A stretch of 39,148 nt of DNA from Candidatus Giovannonibacteria bacterium RIFCSPHIGHO2_12_FULL_44_22 (GTDB taxonomy: Bacteria; Patescibacteriota; Minisyncoccia; UBA11713; 2-01-FULL-45-33). The notes under the pieces are model-generated. The model was given only the letters and a program-made list of their open reading frames with translations, ran no database searches and was not told the DNA's origin. Location of the stretch: contig MFHU01000009.1 of NCBI GenBank assembly GCA_001778695.1, forward strand, positions 1 through 39,148, written 5' to 3'. The translations under genes and the position numbers were made by a program. Below, piece by piece: positions 9,005-37,988 of this stretch. Position 1 is the stretch's first letter; every line of letters starts with the position of its first letter.

Positions 9005-9552
9005 TTCATCTCCGCATTAGAATAAACTTCCTGCACATCGTCGTGGTCGGAGAGGGCGGAGAGCAGCTCTTCAAACTTTTTGGAGTCTTCCGGAGAAAGC
9101 GAGACGGGATATTTCGCAACAAATTCTTTACTCTCTTTGTTAAATGCCCAAGCGGCTGAGCCTTGCTCGCCAAGCTTCGCGCCGTGCTCGGAAAGCAGAT
9201 GTTTTATTTCGTTAGTAGTGCGGTTGGAATTATCTGTTACCGCTGTTATTACTAACGCGGAACCCCCAGGGCCATAGGCTTCATAGACAACCTCTTTTAA
9301 TTCCGCACTGTCTTTTTCAGTCGCTCTTTTTACGGCGCGGCCAATATTGTCGTTGGGCATATTATTTTTTCGCGCCTCTTCTATAGCCGTCGCTAATTTC
9401 GAATTTGTTTTTGGGTCAGGACCTCCGCCAGCTGGCGGATTCTGCGCGACAATAGTAATCGCGCGGGAAAGTTTGGAAAAAATTTTCCCCTTTTTGGCGT
9501 CCGTCGCGCCCTTTTTATATTTTATTTGCGCCCATTTAGAGTGGCCGGACAT
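9001..9552 (-). CDS. yebC: YebC/PmpR-family protein, shortened
   Basis: The N-terminus is diagnostic: MSGHSKWAQIKYKKGATDAK, then KIFSKLSRAI. YGPGGSALVI and TDNSNRT follow, and the end DDVQEVYSNAEM matches the family tail. Homologues act as DNA-binding regulators or as factors that relieve ribosome stalling. Typical members have about 240 residues and this has 183. The missing part lies between the AWAFNKE region and the C-terminal helix. Residues 38-43 (PPAGG) are encoded by a perfect palindrome in a loop that usually is not glycine-rich. It overlaps the upstream PH-domain gene by 17 nt and ruvC by 4 nt. Confidence 0.93.
   Translation of the reverse strand: MSGHSKWAQIKYKKGATDAKKGKIFSKLSRAITIVAQNPPAGGGPDPKTNSKLATAIEEARKNNMPNDNIGRAVKRATEKDSAELKEVVYEAYGPGGSALVITAVTDNSNRTTNEIKHLLSEHGAKLGEQGSAAWAFNKESKEFVAKYPVSLSPEDSKKFEELLSALSDHDDVQEVYSNAEMK
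9424..9439. repeat. PPAGG palindrome copy in yebC
   Basis: TCCGCCAGCTGGCGGA lies inside yebC and is translated NPPAGGG, in the same reading phase as the jag and polA copies. Confidence 0.9.
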
Positions 9553-10845: not shown

Positions 10846-10876
10846 AGCCACTTAGACGTCCGACGTCTAAGTGGCT
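10846..10876. repeat. AGACGTC palindrome, copy 1
   Basis: The arms at 10846-10860 and 10862-10876 are perfect 15-bp reverse complements around one central C. The 23-bp core (10850-10872) is identical to 37966-37988, 27 kb away. It lies just before the stop codon of the toxin gene on the minus strand and after the plus-strand terminator, so it may act as a second barrier. Confidence 0.85.
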
Positions 10877-17511: not shown

Positions 17512-20010
17512 ATGAAAACGCTTGTTTTATTAGATACACACGCATTAATTCATCGGGCGTATCACGCTTTGCCGAAATTTGTTTCAAAAAATACAGGCGA
17601 GCCGACGGGCGCGCTTTACGGGCTCTCCACAATGCTTTTGAAAGTTATTAGGGAATTAAAACCCGATTATATCGTCGCGGCTTTTGACAGGGCGGAGCCG
17701 ACTTTTCGGCACGATGCTTATGATGGCTACAAAGCCCAGCGTCCCGAAGCGGAGAAGGATTTAGTGAGGCAACTTATCAGGGCGCATGACATTGTGGGCG
17801 CCTTCGGGATTCCGATTTTGGACGCGGTTGGATTTGAAGCCGACGATGTTTTAGGGACTATTATTGAGGCGCTTCGCCGAAATCCGCCAGCTGGCGGATT
17901 GAAGACGATAATAGTTTCCGGCGATATGGATACCTTGCAATTAGTGGAAGGCGAAAAAGTTGTTGTTTTTACTTTGCGAAAAGGCATTGAAGATACCATG
18001 ATTTACGACGAAAAAAAAGTTGAAGAAAGATTCGGCTTCGGGCCGAAATTCATCACGGATTTCAAGGGCTTAAAAGGCGACCCTTCGGATAATATTATGG
18101 GCGTCCGCGGTATCGGAGAAAAAACAGCGACGGACATAATCAAGCAATTCGGGACAATTGAGAATTTATATAAAAAACTGGAATCCGGAAACGCGGCAGG
18201 AAAATTAAAAGACAAAACTATACAATTATTAAAAGAGCATAAAAAAGACGCGTTTTTCTCTAAAACTTTAGCCATAATCCGCAAAGACGCGCCGGTGAAA
18301 TTTGCGCTTCCAGCAAAACAATTTGATTTGAATTCTAAAACACTTACTAAAATTTTTACAGAGTTAGGATTTACAAGTTTGACCGCAAGAATAAACAACG
18401 GGAATAATCGAGTGGTTAGACAAGAAAAAAAAATAGCCAAAGAAAAAGAAAAAGCGGCAAAAATTCCAGCGAACGCAGTCTTTTTTCCAGCTGACGAAGC
18501 ATCACTGGAAGCCGTTCCTATAAAAAAATGGCTTGAGATTTCTGAAAACAAAACTCTAGTTTCTCCGGACGTAAAAGCCGTAATAAAATTTTTAAAAAGG
18601 CGCGGGCTTCCGGAGCCGAAAATTTTTTTTGACCTTTCGGTCGCAGCTTGGGTTGCGGAAAGCACGGCAAAAATTTCCGAGCCGCCAGATATCGCGGATT
18701 TGCCTGAAATTTATGAAAAATTACAAAAGCTTGCCAAAGAACGCGGGGTTGAAAAAGTTCTTTATGAAATTGAGTTTCCAATAATTCCAATTCTGGCCGA
18801 AATGGAGTATCGGGGCATTTCAATTGATCGGAAATTTTTGGAAAAATTTAAAAAAGAAACCCAAGCCAAGCTGGGCGAGCTTCAAGATAAAATTTTTAAA
18901 TTCGCCGGCAGAGATTTTAATATCAACTCTCCAGCACAGTTGGGAAATATTTTAGTGGCAATGGGAATATTTTCCGCCGAAGGCGGATCCGCCTCCGGTG
19001 GAGAAGGAAAAATAAAAAAAACCAAAACCGGCAAAATTTCCACCAAAGAAAACGAGCTGGTAAAACTCCGCGGGAAATCTCCGATTATTGATTTAATTTT
19101 AGAGTTTCGTGAATTAAACAAACTTTTAAACACCTATATTAATCCGATTCTGAAGCTTTCATTTAAAGATGAAAAAATCCACACGACTTTAAAACAAACA
19201 GGAACCGTTACCGGCCGGCTTTCTTCGGAAGAACCAAATCTGCAAAATATTCCCATTAGGAGCGATTTTGGAGCGCGAATCAGGGACGCGTTCATCGCTT
19301 CGCCTGGCTTTACTTTCGCGGCGTTTGATTATTCACAAATTGAACTTCGGATTTTGGCCGCGGCGGCCAAGGACGCAAAAATGATTGAAGCTTTCAAAAA
19401 AGGGGTTGATATCCATAAATTTACCGCTGCCAATCTCAATAACTTGCCGATGGATCAAGTGACCGACAAAATGCGGAGCCGCGCCAAGACGATCAATTTC
19501 GGAATCGTCTACGGCATGGGCGTCAGGCAATTGGCGCAGTCAACCGGGATGAATTTGACGGAAGCCCAAAAATTTTATCACGAATATTTTAATGATTTTC
19601 CGGAAATCAAAAAATACATTGAGCATATTAAAAACGAAACTAAAAAAACCGGATACGCCGAGACACTTTTGGGGCGCAAGCGGTTTTTTGATTTGGAAGC
19701 TATTCGCGGAAACGGATTTTTAGAATCCCAGATGGAGCGCATGGCTGTAAACGCGGTGATACAGGGAACAGACGCGGACATAGTTAAATTGGCCATGGTA
19801 GCCGTCCATAAAGAGCTGGACTCACGAAAAATAAGGCCGATTTTGCAAGTTCATGATGAATTGTTATACGAAGTAGCGGATGATATAATAAAGGAAGCGG
19901 TACCTCGCATACGCTTTATTATGGAGAGCGTATATAAGCTTGCTGTTCCATTGTCGGTGGATGTTAAAATAGGGAAAAGATGGGGTTCGCTTGTAAAATA
20001 TATTAAATAA
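17512..20010 (+). CDS. polA: DNA polymerase I
   Basis: This 832-residue protein has an N-terminal 5' nuclease domain (1 to about 285; LLDTHALIHRAYHAL, AAFDRAEPTFRH, IVSGDMDTLQLV, LKGDPSDNIMGVRGIGEKTA). A shortened, degenerate 3'-5' exonuclease-like region follows, lacking the DxE start of the DEDD site. The polymerase domain has motif A FDYSQIELRI (about 605), motif B RSRAKTINFGIVYG (about 654) and motif C QVHDELLYE (about 779). It removes RNA primers and fills repair gaps; proofreading is probably absent. Two palindromes lie in frame: PPAGG at residues 124-129 and EGGSASGG near 488-496. The next gene starts 2 nt after the stop. Confidence 0.96.
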   Translation: MKTLVLLDTHALIHRAYHALPKFVSKNTGEPTGALYGLSTMLLKVIRELKPDYIVAAFDRAEPTFRHDAYDGYKAQRPEAEKDLVRQLIRAHDIVGAFGIPILDAVGFEADDVLGTIIEALRRNPPAGGLKTIIVSGDMDTLQLVEGEKVVVFTLRKGIEDTMIYDEKKVEERFGFGPKFITDFKGLKGDPSDNIMGVRGIGEKTATDIIKQFGTIENLYKKLESGNAAGKLKDKTIQLLKEHKKDAFFSKTLAIIRKDAPVKFALPAKQFDLNSKTLTKIFTELGFTSLTARINNGNNRVVRQEKKIAKEKEKAAKIPANAVFFPADEASLEAVPIKKWLEISENKTLVSPDVKAVIKFLKRRGLPEPKIFFDLSVAAWVAESTAKISEPPDIADLPEIYEKLQKLAKERGVEKVLYEIEFPIIPILAEMEYRGISIDRKFLEKFKKETQAKLGELQDKIFKFAGRDFNINSPAQLGNILVAMGIFSAEGGSASGGEGKIKKTKTGKISTKENELVKLRGKSPIIDLILEFRELNKLLNTYINPILKLSFKDEKIHTTLKQTGTVTGRLSSEEPNLQNIPIRSDFGARIRDAFIASPGFTFAAFDYSQIELRILAAAAKDAKMIEAFKKGVDIHKFTAANLNNLPMDQVTDKMRSRAKTINFGIVYGMGVRQLAQSTGMNLTEAQKFYHEYFNDFPEIKKYIEHIKNETKKTGYAETLLGRKRFFDLEAIRGNGFLESQMERMAVNAVIQGTDADIVKLAMVAVHKELDSRKIRPILQVHDELLYEVADDIIKEAVPRIRFIMESVYKLAVPLSVDVKIGKRWGSLVKYIK
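17883..17898. repeat. PPAGG palindrome copy in polA
   Basis: TCCGCCAGCTGGCGGA lies in the 5' nuclease domain and is read NPPAGGL. The palindrome extends to 20 bp (17881-17900) with AAT/ATT flanks. Confidence 0.9.
18973..18994. repeat. Double GC palindrome in polA
   Basis: TCCGCC-GAA-GGCGGA (18973-18987) overlaps the perfect palindrome AGGCGGATCCGCCT (18981-18994). It is read SAEGGSASGG, a flexible stretch in the fingers/thumb region before KTKTGKISTKENE. Confidence 0.7.
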
Positions 20011-27561: not shown

Positions 27562-28428
27562 ATGGCAAGATACAAGATAGTAATAATAGAAGACGAGCCG
27601 GTGCATCTTAATGTAATGAAGGCTAAGCTGGAATATGAGGGTTATGATGTTTTGGCGGCTGTGGACGGGGAAGCCGGCTATCAAATGGTTAAAGAAGAAA
27701 AGCCGGATTTGGTGCTTTTGGATATAATTTTGCCCAAATTAGACGGATTCGGGGTTTTAGAGAGATTGAAAAAAGACAAAATAAACATCCCGATTATAAT
27801 CGTTTCCAACTCGGGTCAGCCAGTGGAAGTGGATAGGGCCATGGCAATGGGCGCGAAAGATTATTTGGTGAAAGCGGAATTCAACCCGACTGATGTTTTG
27901 GAAAAAGTTGAAAAAGTTTTAGGCGGGCCAGCCTCGACTAACGGGCTAGGCGGGCGTCCGAAAAAAAATGGAAATGGAAATGGCGCGAGCCCTTCAGCTA
28001 TTAAAGCGCTCGCGGATAAGGCCGGCGGAGTCAACGAACGCGCGCGCGGAGGAACCAAGGTTTTAATAGTGGAAGATGATAAATTTTTGCGCGACCTCAT
28101 CGTCCAAAAACTTAAAAGAGAGGGTTTTGTGACTTCCGAAGCGGTGGACGGCGAGGAGGGCTTAAAGATTACCAAAGAAAAACATCCCGACATAATTTTA
28201 CTTGATTTAATTTTACCGGGCTCGGACGGCTTTGAGGTTTTGCGCCGAATCAAAAGCGATACTTCCACCGCTCAAATACCTGTTATAGTGCTCTCCAATC
28301 TCGGACAAAAAGAAGATATGGATAGAGCCATGTCCGGGGGCGCGGAGGATTTTATGGTGAAAGCCCATTTCACGCCGGGGGAAATTATCGCAAAAATAAA
28401 GTCAGTGCTTAAAAAAAAGTATTTTTAA
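27562..28428 (+). CDS. Double-receiver response regulator without output domain
   Basis: This 288-residue protein has two CheY-like receivers. Receiver 1 (about 4-120) has IIEDEP, phospho-acceptor D54 in LVLLDIILPKLDG and the lysine in LVKAEF. Receiver 2 (about 168-286) has LIVEDD, D215 in IILLDLILPGSDG and MVKAHF. The linker is Gly/Asn/Pro-rich (about 121-165) and partly encoded by a repeat (27927-27954). No DNA-binding or enzymatic domain exists, so signalling must go by protein contact or phosphotransfer. A pilus link through PilB is conceivable but has no support in position. The holA gene follows after 8 nt. Confidence 0.93.
   Translation: MARYKIVIIEDEPVHLNVMKAKLEYEGYDVLAAVDGEAGYQMVKEEKPDLVLLDIILPKLDGFGVLERLKKDKINIPIIIVSNSGQPVEVDRAMAMGAKDYLVKAEFNPTDVLEKVEKVLGGPASTNGLGGRPKKNGNGNGASPSAIKALADKAGGVNERARGGTKVLIVEDDKFLRDLIVQKLKREGFVTSEAVDGEEGLKITKEKHPDIILLDLILPGSDGFEVLRRIKSDTSTAQIPVIVLSNLGQKEDMDRAMSGGAEDFMVKAHFTPGEIIAKIKSVLKKKYF
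27927..27954 (+). repeat. 28-bp repeat, copy 1 (linker of the double receiver)
   Basis: It begins GCCAGCCTCGACTA and ends AGGCGGG, encoding PASTNGLGG in the inter-receiver linker. It matches 29327-29354 at 26 of 28 positions, with both copies reading in the same direction on the plus strand. Confidence 0.85.
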
Positions 28429-28436
28429 CCTAATCC

Positions 28437-29327
28437 GTGATTTATTTTCTTTACGGAGAAAATTCGTATCAGGCGCTCCGCAAAATCCGCGAATTCAAAT
28501 CGGCTTTTTCCAAAAAATCTGCTGATTTTTTAATAGAAGAGTTCGACGGCGAGTTTTCCGCGCCGGGTCCTGCGGAATTCCATTCTGTTTTGGGCCAGAT
28601 TAATTTTTTTTCCAAAATTCGGCTGGTAATTTTTAGAAATATTTTGGAATCTAATCCCAAAATTTTTGAAATTCTTAAAGAAAGCGGCGTTTTTTTGAAA
28701 AATTCAAATGACATTTTTGTTTTTTGGGAGAAAGATTTAACGAAGCATAAAGAAGTTTTATCGTTTTTTAAAAAATTCGCGGAAAAAACACAGGAAGTGA
28801 AAACGCTTGGTCCGAAAGAGCTGGACGCTTGGCTTTCAAAAAAAGCGCAAAGCTCGGAAATTCAATTAAGCAAAGAAGAGCGCGAGGTAATGATTGAGGA
28901 AGCGGGCGAGGGCGCCGAGTGGGCGCTGGAGAACGAGTTGGAAAAGGTGGCGTTGGGCGCGCCAGCCGGGAAGAAGTCGCTAGCCTCCTCGAAGTCCGAC
29001 TTCAAATCCCCAAAGAAGTCGGACTTCTTCCCGGCTAGCGACTTCAAAGAAGGCGCTTCTCCCTTTTCTTTCATCGAAAAAATGTTCACCCCCACACCAA
29101 ACCTTTTGGTGTGGGGGTTTAGCCCAAGAGCGCTTTTGGCTCTCAAAGAAATGAGTTTAATCGGCATTGAGCCACAAAAATTCATCTACGCTTTTTTATG
29201 GAAATTGAAACAAAAAAAAATGGCGGATGCTTATCTTAAGGGCATACTTGCGGAATCCCAAATGCGCAGAGACCCTAAAAACTCCGAAGAACATTTGGAG
29301 CGATTTATTTTTTCCCTGAAAGCTTAG
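28437..29327 (+). CDS. holA: DNA polymerase III delta subunit (clamp loader), element-bearing
   Basis: This 296-residue HolA-type protein starts MIYFLYGENSYQALRKI, with a GTG start codon. LENELEKVAL and LFxxL-type helices in the C-terminal domain match the clamp-opening subunit. Delta binds the sliding clamp (dnaN here) and opens it. Two foreign-looking stretches interrupt it in frame. Residues about 175-203 (AGKKSLASSKSDFKSPKKS) come from an 85-bp palindromic element that also occurs in uvrB. Residues about 218-227 (TPTPNLLVWG) come from a 13-bp-stem hairpin. Both lie near the boundary of the helical domains. Identity is fairly secure from the N-terminus and position. Confidence 0.82.
   Translation: MIYFLYGENSYQALRKIREFKSAFSKKSADFLIEEFDGEFSAPGPAEFHSVLGQINFFSKIRLVIFRNILESNPKIFEILKESGVFLKNSNDIFVFWEKDLTKHKEVLSFFKKFAEKTQEVKTLGPKELDAWLSKKAQSSEIQLSKEEREVMIEEAGEGAEWALENELEKVALGAPAGKKSLASSKSDFKSPKKSDFFPASDFKEGASPFSFIEKMFTPTPNLLVWGFSPRALLALKEMSLIGIEPQKFIYAFLWKLKQKKMADAYLKGILAESQMRRDPKNSEEHLERFIFSLKA
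28961..29045. repeat. KKSDFF palindromic element, copy 1 (in holA)
   Basis: Inner arms GAAGTCCGACTTC (28991-29003) and GAAGTCGGACTTC (29015-29027) pair around an 11-nt loop. An outer pair, GAAGTCGCTAGCC (28973-28985) with GGCTAGCGACTTC (29033-29045), pairs around it. The core 28985-29037 matches the uvrB copy. The plus strand reads SKSDFKSPKKSDFFPA; the opposite strand is also open. Confidence 0.93.
29089..29117. repeat. 13-bp-stem hairpin in holA
   Basis: CCCCCACACCAAA (29089-29101) and TTTGGTGTGGGGG (29105-29117) are perfect arms around CCT. It encodes TPTPNLLVWG. A stem this stable inside a coding region is unusual. Confidence 0.9.
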
Positions 29328-29354
29328 CCAGCCTCGACTAGCGGGCCAGGCGGG
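29327..29354. repeat. 28-bp repeat, copy 2 (between holA and rpsT)
   Basis: It matches 27927-27954 at 26 of 28 positions. It begins at the last base of the holA stop and supplies the last codons and stop of rpsT on the minus strand (RLAR, TAG). The two convergent genes therefore share this element as their junction. Confidence 0.85.
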
Positions 29355-29562
29355 ATTTCATTCTCGAGGCTTTGTTTTTTTTGATGAGGCCTCTTTTGGC
29401 TGACTTGTCTATAATTTTATAGGCTTGTGACAACGCGGGCGCTGATTTTTCCAAAACCGCTTTCTTTACGGCTTCATTCAGTTTATTTTTCCAAGTCTGG
29501 TTTTTGACGCGCCTTTTGGCTGACTGTCGCAGGGCTTTTTTAGCAGATTTAATTATTGGCAT
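29338..29562 (-). CDS. rpsT: 30S ribosomal protein S20
   Basis: This 74-residue basic protein reads MPIIKSAKKALRQSAKRRVK, then NKLNEAVKKAV and the typical ending IDKSAKRGLIKKNKASRMKS. S20 binds 16S rRNA at the bottom of the 30S subunit. It is slightly shorter than usual (about 85). The last three residues come from the repeat at 29327-29354. It stands alone between convergent holA and co-oriented uvrB, whose start is far upstream; uvrB lies downstream on the same strand order but has its own start at 31559. Confidence 0.93.
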   Translation of the reverse strand: MPIIKSAKKALRQSAKRRVKNQTWKNKLNEAVKKAVLEKSAPALSQAYKIIDKSAKRGLIKKNKASRMKSRLAR

Positions 29563-29579
29563 ATAAAAATAAGTCTATA

Positions 29580-31559
29580 TTATTTTATATTTTTAATCAA
29601 ATCCCTAAGTTCTGCCGCCTTTTCAAAATCCAGCGTTTTCGCGGCTTCCAGCATTTCTTCTTCCAATTCCTGTTTTAGTTTTTCTTTGGACATGGACTTG
29701 GACATTTTGGTCAAATCAAATTTTATTTTCTTTTCCGAAGTGCCGAAAATGTTTTCGTTGATTTCTCTGACAATCTGTTGGGGCGTGATGCCGTGTTTTT
29801 TATTAAATTCATCCTGCAAAACTCTCCGGCGGTCAGTTTCGGAAATAGCTTTTTTCATAGAGAGGGTCACCGCGTCGGCATACATTATAACTGTCCCGTG
29901 GGTATGCCTGGCGGCTCGGCCGATTGTTTGAATTAAAGTTTGCGCGTTCCGCAAAAATCCTTCCTTATCGGCGTCTAAAATTATAACCAAAGAAACCTCT
30001 GGCAGGTCAATACCTTCTCTTAAAAGATTTATTCCCACAATCACGTCATAATGTCCGCTTCTTAAATCATTTATAATTTTATGCCGCTCCAAAGTTTTAA
30101 TGTCCGAATGCAAGTATTCGGCTTTTATGCCAGCTTCTTTTAAATAGTCGGCTAAGTCCTCCGCCATGCGCTTAGTAAGGGTTGTGATAATAACTCGCTG
30201 TTTTTCTTTTATTCTTTTTTTAACTTCAGAAATTACGTCTTTGATTTGATTTTTTGTGTTCCGCACTTCCACTTTCGGGTCCAAAAGGCCGGTGGGCCGG
30301 ATTATTTGCTCCACCACCGCGCTTCCGCTTATTCGAAGTTCGTATTCAGCCGGAGTCGCCGAAACGTAAACAGTTTGCCCAACTTTTTTTAGAAACTCGC
30401 CAAATTTTAAAGGACGGTTATCCATGGCCGACGGAAGCCTGAAGCCATAATCCACTAAAACTTTTTTTCTAGCCTGGTCGCCCATGTACATACCGCGGAT
30501 TTGGGGAATAGACATATGCGATTCGTCAATAATCGTAATAAAATCTTTTGGAAGATAATCCAAAAGAGTCGCGGGTGGCTCGCCGGATTTTCTGAATGAA
30601 AGCTGGCGCGAATAATTTTCTATTCCGTGGGTGTAGCCGGTTTCTTTTAGCATTTTTAAATCAAAATTTGTGCGTTGGGAAATTCGTTGGGCTTCCAAAA
30701 GCTTTCCCTCTTTCTTTAATTCTACCGCGCGGCTTTTTGATTCCAGTTCAATATTAGAAAGCGCGAGTTCAAGCTTATCATGCGGCGTGACGAAATGTTT
30801 GGCAGGAAAGATTTTTGCCGCGCCAGCCTCCTCGAAGTCCGACTTCAAATCCCCAAAGAAGTCGGACTTCTTCCCGGCTGGCGCTATTTCCGATATCTTC
30901 TCAATTCGGTTTCCATCCCATTCAATCCTGATAACCGAATTTCCTGATGGCGCGACGATTTCAACCGCTTCTCCTCTTGCCGAAAAAGTTCCTTGGCGCT
31001 TGTCGTAATCATTTCTTTCATATTGCATTTGGACTAATTTTCTTAAAAACATCCGTTGCGCGATGGCAGTACCTTTGCGAATTTCCAAAGAAGCTTTTTC
31101 ATATTCTTCTGGGTCGCCAATGCCGTAGATACAAGAAACGGAAGCCACAATTATAAAATCCCTCCGCGTTAGCGCCGTCGCGGTAGTGGCGTGGCGCATT
31201 GCGTCAATAAAAGTATTGATTTTAGCGTCCTTTTCTATATAAGTGTCGGTTTGCGGAATATAAGCTTCGGGCTGGTAATAATCGTAATAAGAAACAAAAT
31301 AATGCACGGCGTTTTCTGGAAAAAAAGTTTTAAATTCCTGATAAAGCTGGGCGGCTAGAGTTTTATTATGCGATATTACTAAGGCCGGGCGGCCTAAATT
31401 GGCGATGACATTCGCTATCGTAAAAGTTTTACCGGAACCGGTGACGCCCAAAAGCGTCTGGTTTTTATTTTCGGCTTTCAACAACTTGGAAAGCTCGGCA
31501 ATCGCCTTCGGCTGGTCTCCGGCGGGCTGGTATGGTTGGTAAAGTTTAAATATTGACAT
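29580..31559 (-). CDS. uvrB: Excinuclease ABC subunit B, element-bearing
   Basis: This 659-residue DEAD-like helicase is the damage-verification subunit of nucleotide excision repair. Walker A is GVTGSGKTFTIANVI. The beta-hairpin region is YYDYYQPEAYIPQTDTYIEK. Helicase motifs include IIDESHMSIPQIRGMY, ITTLTKRMAEDL and QTIGRAARH, and the C-terminal UVR motif ends AAELRDLIKNIK. Residues about 225-247 (APAGKKSDFFGDLKSDFEEA) replace the usual short loop between ISEI and the IFPAKHFVTP strand. They come from the same palindromic element found in holA, read from the other strand. The loop is surface-exposed in known UvrB, so activity should survive. Confidence 0.97.
   Translation of the reverse strand: MSIFKLYQPYQPAGDQPKAIAELSKLLKAENKNQTLLGVTGSGKTFTIANVIANLGRPALVISHNKTLAAQLYQEFKTFFPENAVHYFVSYYDYYQPEAYIPQTDTYIEKDAKINTFIDAMRHATTATALTRRDFIIVASVSCIYGIGDPEEYEKASLEIRKGTAIAQRMFLRKLVQMQYERNDYDKRQGTFSARGEAVEIVAPSGNSVIRIEWDGNRIEKISEIAPAGKKSDFFGDLKSDFEEAGAAKIFPAKHFVTPHDKLELALSNIELESKSRAVELKKEGKLLEAQRISQRTNFDLKMLKETGYTHGIENYSRQLSFRKSGEPPATLLDYLPKDFITIIDESHMSIPQIRGMYMGDQARKKVLVDYGFRLPSAMDNRPLKFGEFLKKVGQTVYVSATPAEYELRISGSAVVEQIIRPTGLLDPKVEVRNTKNQIKDVISEVKKRIKEKQRVIITTLTKRMAEDLADYLKEAGIKAEYLHSDIKTLERHKIINDLRSGHYDVIVGINLLREGIDLPEVSLVIILDADKEGFLRNAQTLIQTIGRAARHTHGTVIMYADAVTLSMKKAISETDRRRVLQDEFNKKHGITPQQIVREINENIFGTSEKKIKFDLTKMSKSMSKEKLKQELEEEMLEAAKTLDFEKAAELRDLIKNIK
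30820..30884. repeat. KKSDFF palindromic element, copy 2 (in uvrB)
   Basis: Outer arms GCGCCAGCC (30820-30828) and GGCTGGCGC (30876-30884) enclose inner arms 30834-30846 and 30858-30870. The loop AAATCCCCAAA is identical to copy 1. On the minus strand it reads AGKKSDFFGDLKSDFEEAGA. Confidence 0.93.
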
Positions 31560-37511: not shown

Positions 37512-37971
37512 CATACTGGGCGTAGAATTAAACTTGGACGAAGTGGTTCGGGCTATTTACGATTTTGTTAAATTAAAACCGCAACGAAAATATAAAATAA
37601 TAATCGGCACGGATTCTTCGGCGAGGAATGAAGTAGCTTTAATTACCGCTATAACCATTTGGCGGGTGGGGAACGGCGGAATTCATTTTTGGACAAAATC
37701 CGAAGTTATGAAATTCCACGGCTTGAGGGAGAGAATTTATAAAGAAGCCATCCAATCCATAACTTTGGCGCAGGAATTGCGCGGGCGGTTGAAAGACGCG
37801 CTTGGGGACGAATTTTTCTGGGACGACCAGATTCATATTGATGTCGGGCGCGTCGGCCCGACCAAAGAATTGATTGACACAGTTGTGGGCATGGCCAAAG
37901 GATATGGCTTTCACGTTGAAATTAAACCCAATGCGTTTGGCGCCTCAACCGTTGCGGATAGACACACTTAG
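37489..37971 (+). CDS. YkuK/DUF458-like RNase H-fold protein
   Basis: This 160-residue protein has the core KIIIGTDSSARNEVALITAITIWR near residue 36, then GGIHFWTKSEVM and IHIDVGRVGPTKELIDTVVG. YkuK-like proteins share the RNase H fold, and the GTDS aspartate would be the first catalytic residue. The function is unknown. Its start lies 23 nt inside the exonuclease gene, which suggests one mRNA. Its stop codon (37969-37971) is contained in the AGACGTC palindrome. tRNA-Arg follows 20 nt later. Confidence 0.85.
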   Translation: MSNSKFFNILGVELNLDEVVRAIYDFVKLKPQRKYKIIIGTDSSARNEVALITAITIWRVGNGGIHFWTKSEVMKFHGLRERIYKEAIQSITLAQELRGRLKDALGDEFFWDDQIHIDVGRVGPTKELIDTVVGMAKGYGFHVEIKPNAFGASTVADRHT

Positions 37972-37988
37972 ACGTCCGACGTCTAAGT
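37966..37988. repeat. AGACGTC palindrome, copy 2
   Basis: ACTTAGACGTC and GACGTCTAAGT are perfect 11-bp arms around one C. The 23 bp are identical to the core of the copy near 10850. It supplies the stop codon of the preceding gene and ends 3 bp before tRNA-Arg. Confidence 0.9.

Follow-up and report, generated by a model that had tools for sequence, protein, structure and literature searches.

In-gene palindromic hairpins of Candidatus Giovannonibacteria: a REP-doublet family that is probably translated and probably moved by Y1 transposases

The stretch of DNA analysed here, which we call the window, comprises 39,148 nucleotides (nt) of Candidatus Giovannonibacteria bacterium RIFCSPHIGHO2_12_FULL_44_22, whose genome is coded G000 in the comparisons below (643 kb in 17 contigs, same genus as G002). 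Within the window, a palindromic repeat lies inside two genes and is read from opposite strands, at 28978-29040 in holA (plus strand) and at 30821-30883 in uvrB (minus strand). A preliminary description of this DNA had reported a core of about 53 bp common to the two genes; the sharing holds, although the repeat is really 63 nt long, with copies that are 97% identical. They mismatch only in the outer stem, at two positions that compensate each other (GCTAGCC/GGCTAGC versus GCCAGCC/GGCTGGC). The gene identities given there also hold (Table 1), as do the translation-compatible frames on opposite strands, both open reading frames (ORFs) being open throughout the element.

Each copy folds into a hairpin. 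An outer stem of at least 7 bp is followed by a 5x5 internal loop of purines, with GGGAA facing GAGGA, by an inner stem of 13 bp and by an 11-nt loop; this last loop and the near-palindromic inner arms had been described correctly at the outset. The inner arms, GAAGTCCGACTTC and GAAGTCGGACTTC, are each 13 nt long, self-palindromic and mutually inverted. Because the arm GAAGTCCGACTTC is itself palindromic, K-S-D-F is encoded on both strands in one phase; the earlier statement that this peptide appears whichever strand is read is right for that phase and wrong for the other two of the three phases on each strand. As single-stranded DNA the element folds at -21.3 kcal/mol (z -7.7), which none of 200 shuffled sequences equalled, and as RNA the hairpin reaches -38.3 kcal/mol. 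A search of the region against Rfam matched no known family; one sub-threshold microRNA match was rejected. The preliminary description missed that the holA copy is nested: it splits the arm palindrome of an older element into two halves, and remnants of that element flank it on either side.

Table 1. Coordinates of the two host genes, the two element copies and their parts in the window.
Feature	Position	Strand	Remark
uvrB, 659 aa, host of copy 1	29580..31559	-	Pfam UvrB, UvrB_inter, Helicase_C, UVR
Copy 1, complete element: 9-bp outer stem, 5x5 internal loop, 13-bp inner stem, 11-nt loop; peptide APAGKKSDFFGDLKSDFEEAG in UvrB	30820..30884	-	Site empty in G001, G006, G007
Copy 1, left outer stem, pairing with 30876-30884	30820..30828		Repeat/palindrome analysis
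Copy 1, internal-loop strand TCCTC (minus strand: GAGGA)	30829..30833		Conserved across 100 distinct elements
Copy 1, self-palindromic arm GAAGTCCGACTTC	30834..30846		
Copy 1, 11-nt loop AAATCCCCAAA	30847..30857		
Copy 1, self-palindromic arm GAAGTCGGACTTC	30858..30870		
Copy 1, internal-loop strand TTCCC (minus strand: GGGAA)	30871..30875		Conserved
Copy 1, right outer stem	30876..30884		
holA (DNA polymerase III delta subunit), 296 aa, host of copy 2	28437..29327	+	TIGR01128, E 1e-20, slightly under its cut-off
Copy 2, inner complete element; peptide on plus strand LASSKSDFKSPKKSDFFPAS	28979..29039		
Left remnant of outer element, opposite orientation (GCGCCAGCC GGGAA GAAGTC)	28959..28978	+	BLAST match at 28960-28978
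Right remnant of outer element (GACTTC AAAGA AGGCGC)	29040..29056	+	

The two copies are not alone, as they would have been had the palindrome been confined to this pair of genes: G000 contains 7 copies at the BLAST level, its relatives contain more, and a BLAST census of 43 copies placed nearly all of them within long ORFs. A covariance model built from 13 sequences, with matches counted at E<1e-6, found elements in 10 of the 10 Giovannonibacteria family genomes examined, at 1 to 36 per genome, counts that are lower bounds since a limited number of candidates was scored in each. All genomes compared are draft metagenome-assembled genomes (MAGs), ORFs were taken from stop to stop with no gene caller, and intergenic copies were counted only through search matches. 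Clustered by host gene and position, the 131 elements read in all occupy 66 sites in about 50 host gene families, and 122 of the 128 family copies lie inside ORFs of at least 150 aa. Their hosts include UvrA, UvrB, UvrC, Mfd, DnaG, HolA, RecR, the valyl-, cysteinyl-, seryl- and arginyl-tRNA synthetases and GatB, as well as the CCA-adding enzyme, LepA, MurA, MurE, PNPase and L23. Outside the family the model found elements in three genomes (G061, G081 and G065). Two of these, G061 and G081, represent another family, in which MAGs likewise bear the name Giovannonibacteria, and both have elements at the same UvrB loop (L358, L359), where the framework is kept with other arms. This suggests that the UvrB loop is a recurrent permissive site.

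What recurs from copy to copy is a hairpin of about 61 bp (range about 45-63 bp) with a variable outer stem, a conserved unpaired GGGAA/GAGGA internal loop, exchangeable arms and a short loop. Among the 131 elements, the arms fall into classes named here by the peptide that they encode: KSDF (45), TLGV (37), KPGF (26), TSDV (17) and TPGV (6). At the UvrB site of G008 and G009, for example, the same framework carries the arms AACACTCGGTGTT, read as GKTLGVFGDSTPSVEE in G008, and HolA of G006 and of G008 adds two further arm types. As the framework occurs with at least four arm sequences other than the one in the window, the unit does not depend on having KSDF arms. Its pairing is nevertheless maintained; across 100 distinct 61-nt elements, 97.3% of the pair cells are paired and 555 of 2000 cells have changed on both sides, while conservation is highest in the internal loop (1.71 bits), lower in the arms (1.25) and lowest in the outer stem (0.74). 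In a control on 13 rows, 53 double-changed cells were counted against 14.6 +/- 3.0 in shuffled alignments, and slid versions also fell far below the real one. The outer stem reaches into the flanks by an average of 2.4 extra pairs. Two 82-nt versions (L091 at G002:C34:2899 and L315 at G008:C10:2181) contain a 21-nt palindrome, CCTGCC..GGGCAGG, in frame in the loop or arm.

Comparison of orthologous genes points to turnover at these sites. The UvrB site is filled in G000, G002 and G004 with KSDF arms and in G008 and G009 with TLGV arms in mutually opposite orientations; it is empty in G001, G006 and G007, where the loop has only about 4 residues, and in G003 it holds an unrelated insert. The alignment of UvrB and HolA with relatives, which had been proposed as a check, thus yielded insert-free UvrB sites. 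One UvrA site is filled solely in G000 and empty in 9 other genomes, the LepA insert is confined to G000 and G003, and at 23 of the 66 sites both orientations are present in different genomes. Short in-frame remnants, such as APSLKSDFFSG in UvrA of G004, suggest in-frame decay, and further nested copies occur in the family at the centres of arms. The filled and empty sites, together with the differences in orientation and arms, indicate that sites are reused and that their contents turn over, from which we infer repeated insertion into permissive loops. Two narrower ideas were dropped: nested copies are not always inverted, two orthologous cases sharing orientation, and the outer stem is unsupported as a pre-existing target palindrome at UvrB, where the empty sites are non-palindromic. 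A second, unrelated insert family of about 30-40 aa (..QDLAQRDGA..QQRDMRVLAKSGAEAK) was seen in UvrB of G003 (L278), HolA of G007 (L277) and G009 (L280) and UvrA of G003 (L469). It occupies the same tolerant sites and is apparently a mobile in-frame sequence as well.

A candidate for the mobilising enzyme comes from the arms. Each family genome has 2 to 8 genes for Y1 transposases (PF01797), and a palindrome lies directly upstream and/or downstream of 52 of the 65 Y1 ORFs read, and the ORF itself frequently encloses a third copy. The KSDF, TLGV and KPGF arms are identical to the cores of such palindromes, and the TSDV arm is one base off. Four KSDF-flanked Y1 proteins, with the palindrome GAAGTCSGACTTC in G000, G003, G004 and G005, form one clade (support 98/92), and the palindrome AAACCAGGTTT flanks Y1 genes in G000 and G008 whose proteins are sisters (100/98); further flanking palindromes are AACACCGAGTGTT in G008 and AACATCCAATGTT in G001. 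Candidate cognate Y1 proteins are encoded at C7:25270 in G000 for the KSDF arms and at C35:25931 in G008 for the TLGV arms. Random palindromes match the Y1 set equally closely in about 2-4% of trials per arm class. The KPGF-like cores in L431 and L439 belong to another Y1 clade, which weakens the support for that class, and one match (L390), tagged KSDF by string match only, was discarded. Palindromes that bracket Y1 genes are the arrangement of repetitive extragenic palindromic (REP) sequences and their REP-associated tyrosine transposases (RAYTs), so the element corresponds to a REP doublet, as in the REP doublets forming hairpins known as REPINs. The third palindrome copy inside the Y1 coding sequence, at about nt 155-175 or 433-441 (L066, L385, L395, L402, L384, L397, L414, L399), is possibly a self-regulatory site.

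The hairpins could instead have spread in the course of replication, through template switching or gene conversion where palindromes lie; no transposase would then be involved, and their likeness to the Y1 palindromes would reflect shared ancestry only. Such a process agrees with the nesting of copies in arm centres, with the different orientations seen at fixed sites and with the extension of the outer stem into the flanks. However, new sites in unrelated genes require a step from donor to target, the empty UvrB loops contain no template palindrome, and the arm classes follow the Y1 palindromes beyond chance, and we therefore regard spread of this kind as unlikely, while still the strongest of the alternatives considered here.

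Reading phase, assigned from the coordinates of the covariance model, is strongly restricted. In ORFs of at least 200 aa, 113 of 117 family copies share one phase relative to the framework, in both orientations, and with one copy counted per site 56 of 58 are in the main phase (binomial p 1e-24 for a null of 1/3 and 1e-14 for a null of 1/2). The other frames are open in 62 to 106 of the 128 elements, depending on the frame, and since they are often or mostly open, filtering for open frames alone cannot account for the bias. The same palindrome pair outside the family and without the framework shows phases of 14/11/17 among the matches listed. A simple palindrome pair was considered as a proxy for the element, and the GTDB-wide matches listed span many phyla; because those pairs outside the family have neither framework nor phase bias, the proxy was not used. 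The larger length variants of 55, 64 and 82 nt differ from 61 nt by multiples of three. The phase restriction speaks for translation of the insert within the host protein, and for a peptide that must, at the least, be tolerable. Residues 228-240 of UvrB have, in the AlphaFold model, a predicted local distance difference test score (pLDDT) below 50 and form a loop between two confident strands in the UvrB_inter region, so that the insert is predicted to sit at a tolerated site, in a loop of low confidence. A short surface loop of UvrB is thus affected, as had been proposed, although it is lengthened rather than replaced like for like.

The peptide might also be what is selected, if it serves as an adaptive tag or a regulatory loop and is conserved for that reason. 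A single phase in both orientations fits this, as does the fact that many hosts are proteins of DNA repair or translation, a trend also described for intragenic REPs elsewhere in the passages of Di Nocera et al. 2013 drawn on here (PMC3733652). Yet a change of arms brings an entirely different peptide (KSDF, TLGV/TPSV, TSDV, KPGF), and the reading can come from either strand, while the pairing of the DNA is kept; orthologues do without the peptide, and the hosts belong to about 50 unrelated families, all of which makes a peptide function very unlikely. A shade less probable again is a functional DNA or RNA signal that happens to lie in genes, such as a protein-binding site, an uptake sequence or an mRNA stability element: the internal loop is indeed the most conserved part, but copy number runs from 1 to about 40 per genome, presence varies at orthologous sites among congeners and both orientations occur at one site. 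In yeast mitochondria, the small hairpins called byps lie within coding sequence and are skipped by the ribosome, whereas the phase restriction here argues for translation. That the inserts are spliced from the mRNA or skipped in this way, leaving normal proteins, is scarcely credible despite the stable RNA hairpin and the essential host genes, as phase would then be irrelevant, length variants need not keep to multiples of three and no known Rfam family was matched.

Multicopy dispersal, filled and empty orthologous sites, stem covariation, a single phase, nesting and the arm match to Y1 palindromes are all read directly from the sequences. We consider it probable that the elements are REP-doublet, REPIN-like, non-autonomous mobile hairpins in genes, translated, moved in trans by Y1 transposases and persisting as tolerated loops. 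A cognate Y1 HUH transposase would recognise the arms in single-stranded form and mobilise the hairpin unit in trans. New copies could land anywhere, and purifying selection in these gene-dense genomes would spare only those that fell into flexible surface loops and whose phase gives a short peptide, soluble and charged; the element would thereby have become adapted to life inside genes, and a switch of arms would mean the use of a different transposase. Whether the hairpin has in fact evolved as a protein-compatible insert, lodged mostly in the genes of ultra-small genomes and constrained at once by the hairpin form that a single-strand transposase needs, by the internal loop and by a benign peptide that either strand yields in one phase, with arms that follow the resident transposases while the framework is kept, seems to us an evenly balanced question.

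Several observations weigh against mobile, translated REP doublets. Four of the 117 copies are off-phase (UvrA in G000 and in G008, a VirB4-like ORF in G008 and one in G002). No target-site duplication could be defined, and none is apparent at UvrB, where the flanks have diverged. The GGGAA/GAGGA framework was not found at the Y1-flanking palindromes examined, and no tetranucleotide guide of the GTAG type was identified, the GGGAA and GAGGA strands being what flanks the arms; for these two reasons the case for mobilisation in trans depends on the arm match. Within a genome, the type of arm can also disagree with that of the Y1 gene, as in G005, which has a TLGV element and, among the Y1 genes read, a KSDF-type one. 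Some contigs of G001 were possibly binned from a G004-like organism and, more generally, transposition and translation have been deduced from the sequences of draft genomes.

Among known systems, Rickettsia palindromic elements (RPEs) are palindromic, repeated and inserted in frame within conserved genes, where they add a short peptide at tolerant sites; they measure about 105-150 bp and also occur between genes and in RNA genes (PMC2229807, PMC10969869). The analogy with RPEs drawn in the preliminary description was apt: they and their Wolbachia relatives share with our elements a repeated palindrome dispersed in unrelated genes, in-frame insertion, empty orthologous sites in close relatives and a short peptide. 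The UvrB proteins of 22 sampled same-class genomes outside the family do not have the KSDF peptide, although 2 of the 22 carry a related insert at the same loop. Our elements fall outside the length range of RPEs, and they differ by description in their near confinement to ORFs, the single phase in both orientations, the internal loop with exchangeable arms and the match to resident Y1 genes. REPINs are non-autonomous hairpins of two inverted REPs whose arms match the palindromes flanking a Y1 gene (Bertels and Rainey 2011; PMC3116915). Our elements share this doublet structure and, with one mismatch for TSDV, this match; REPINs, however, are defined as extragenic and have longer spacers, whereas here the copies are largely intragenic, probably translated and built on one framework common to several arm types. 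Closest in location are the intragenic REPs and REP dimers of Di Nocera et al. 2013, which encode 20-30 aa and of which many lie in uvrA, uvrB, polymerase and tRNA synthetase genes; in the passages concerned, GTAG/CGTC REPs are mostly intergenic and the intragenic ones a minority (PMC3733652). REP pairs within genes and a similar host list are common to both, although no GTAG or CGTC tag was recognised in our elements and those passages do not include Patescibacteria. The suggestion that an in-gene palindrome of this lineage would be a new element therefore stands in part. The kind is not new, because intragenic REP dimers in uvrA/uvrB-type genes are described from other phyla in the same passages (PMC3733652); what looks new is the lineage in which it occurs, the constant framework that takes different arms, the restriction to one phase and the match with transposase palindromes, and a literature search that largely excluded subscription journals found no report of such elements in Patescibacteria.

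What moves palindromes inside proteins, and why they are tolerated, has been a standing question since the Rickettsia elements were described. Here copies, arm types, empty sites and candidate Y1 transposases occur together in small genomes, which makes the enzyme, its target rule and the selection of phase directly testable. As housekeeping proteins of this lineage (UvrA, UvrB, UvrC, Mfd and several tRNA synthetases) would carry loops derived from mobile DNA, annotation and structure prediction are affected, and an association of intragenic REPs with DNA repair genes that had been reported before would now reach into a distant lineage.

The window contains other repeats. A second palindromic in-frame insertion in holA, at 29089-29117, consists of CCCCCACACCAAA-CCT-TTTGGTGTGGGGG and is read as TPTPNLLVWG; it is absent from other HolA proteins of the family, and its palindrome CCACACCAAANNNTTTGGTGTGG occurs 6 times in G000 within 3 mismatches. 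The perfect palindrome CACTTAGACGTCCGACGTCTAAGTG, at 10849-10873 and 37965-37988, is identical to Y1-flanking palindromes in G004 (L420) and G008 (L427) and is a simple REP-like repeat close to ORF ends. A 28-nt repeat, GCCAGCCTCGACTARCGGGCYAGGCGGG, lies at 27927-27954, inside the ORF at 27562-28428, and at 29327-29354, at the end of holA, and a further repeat at 9424-9456 and 17883-17915 begins with the 16-nt perfect palindrome TCCGCCAGCTGGCGGA.

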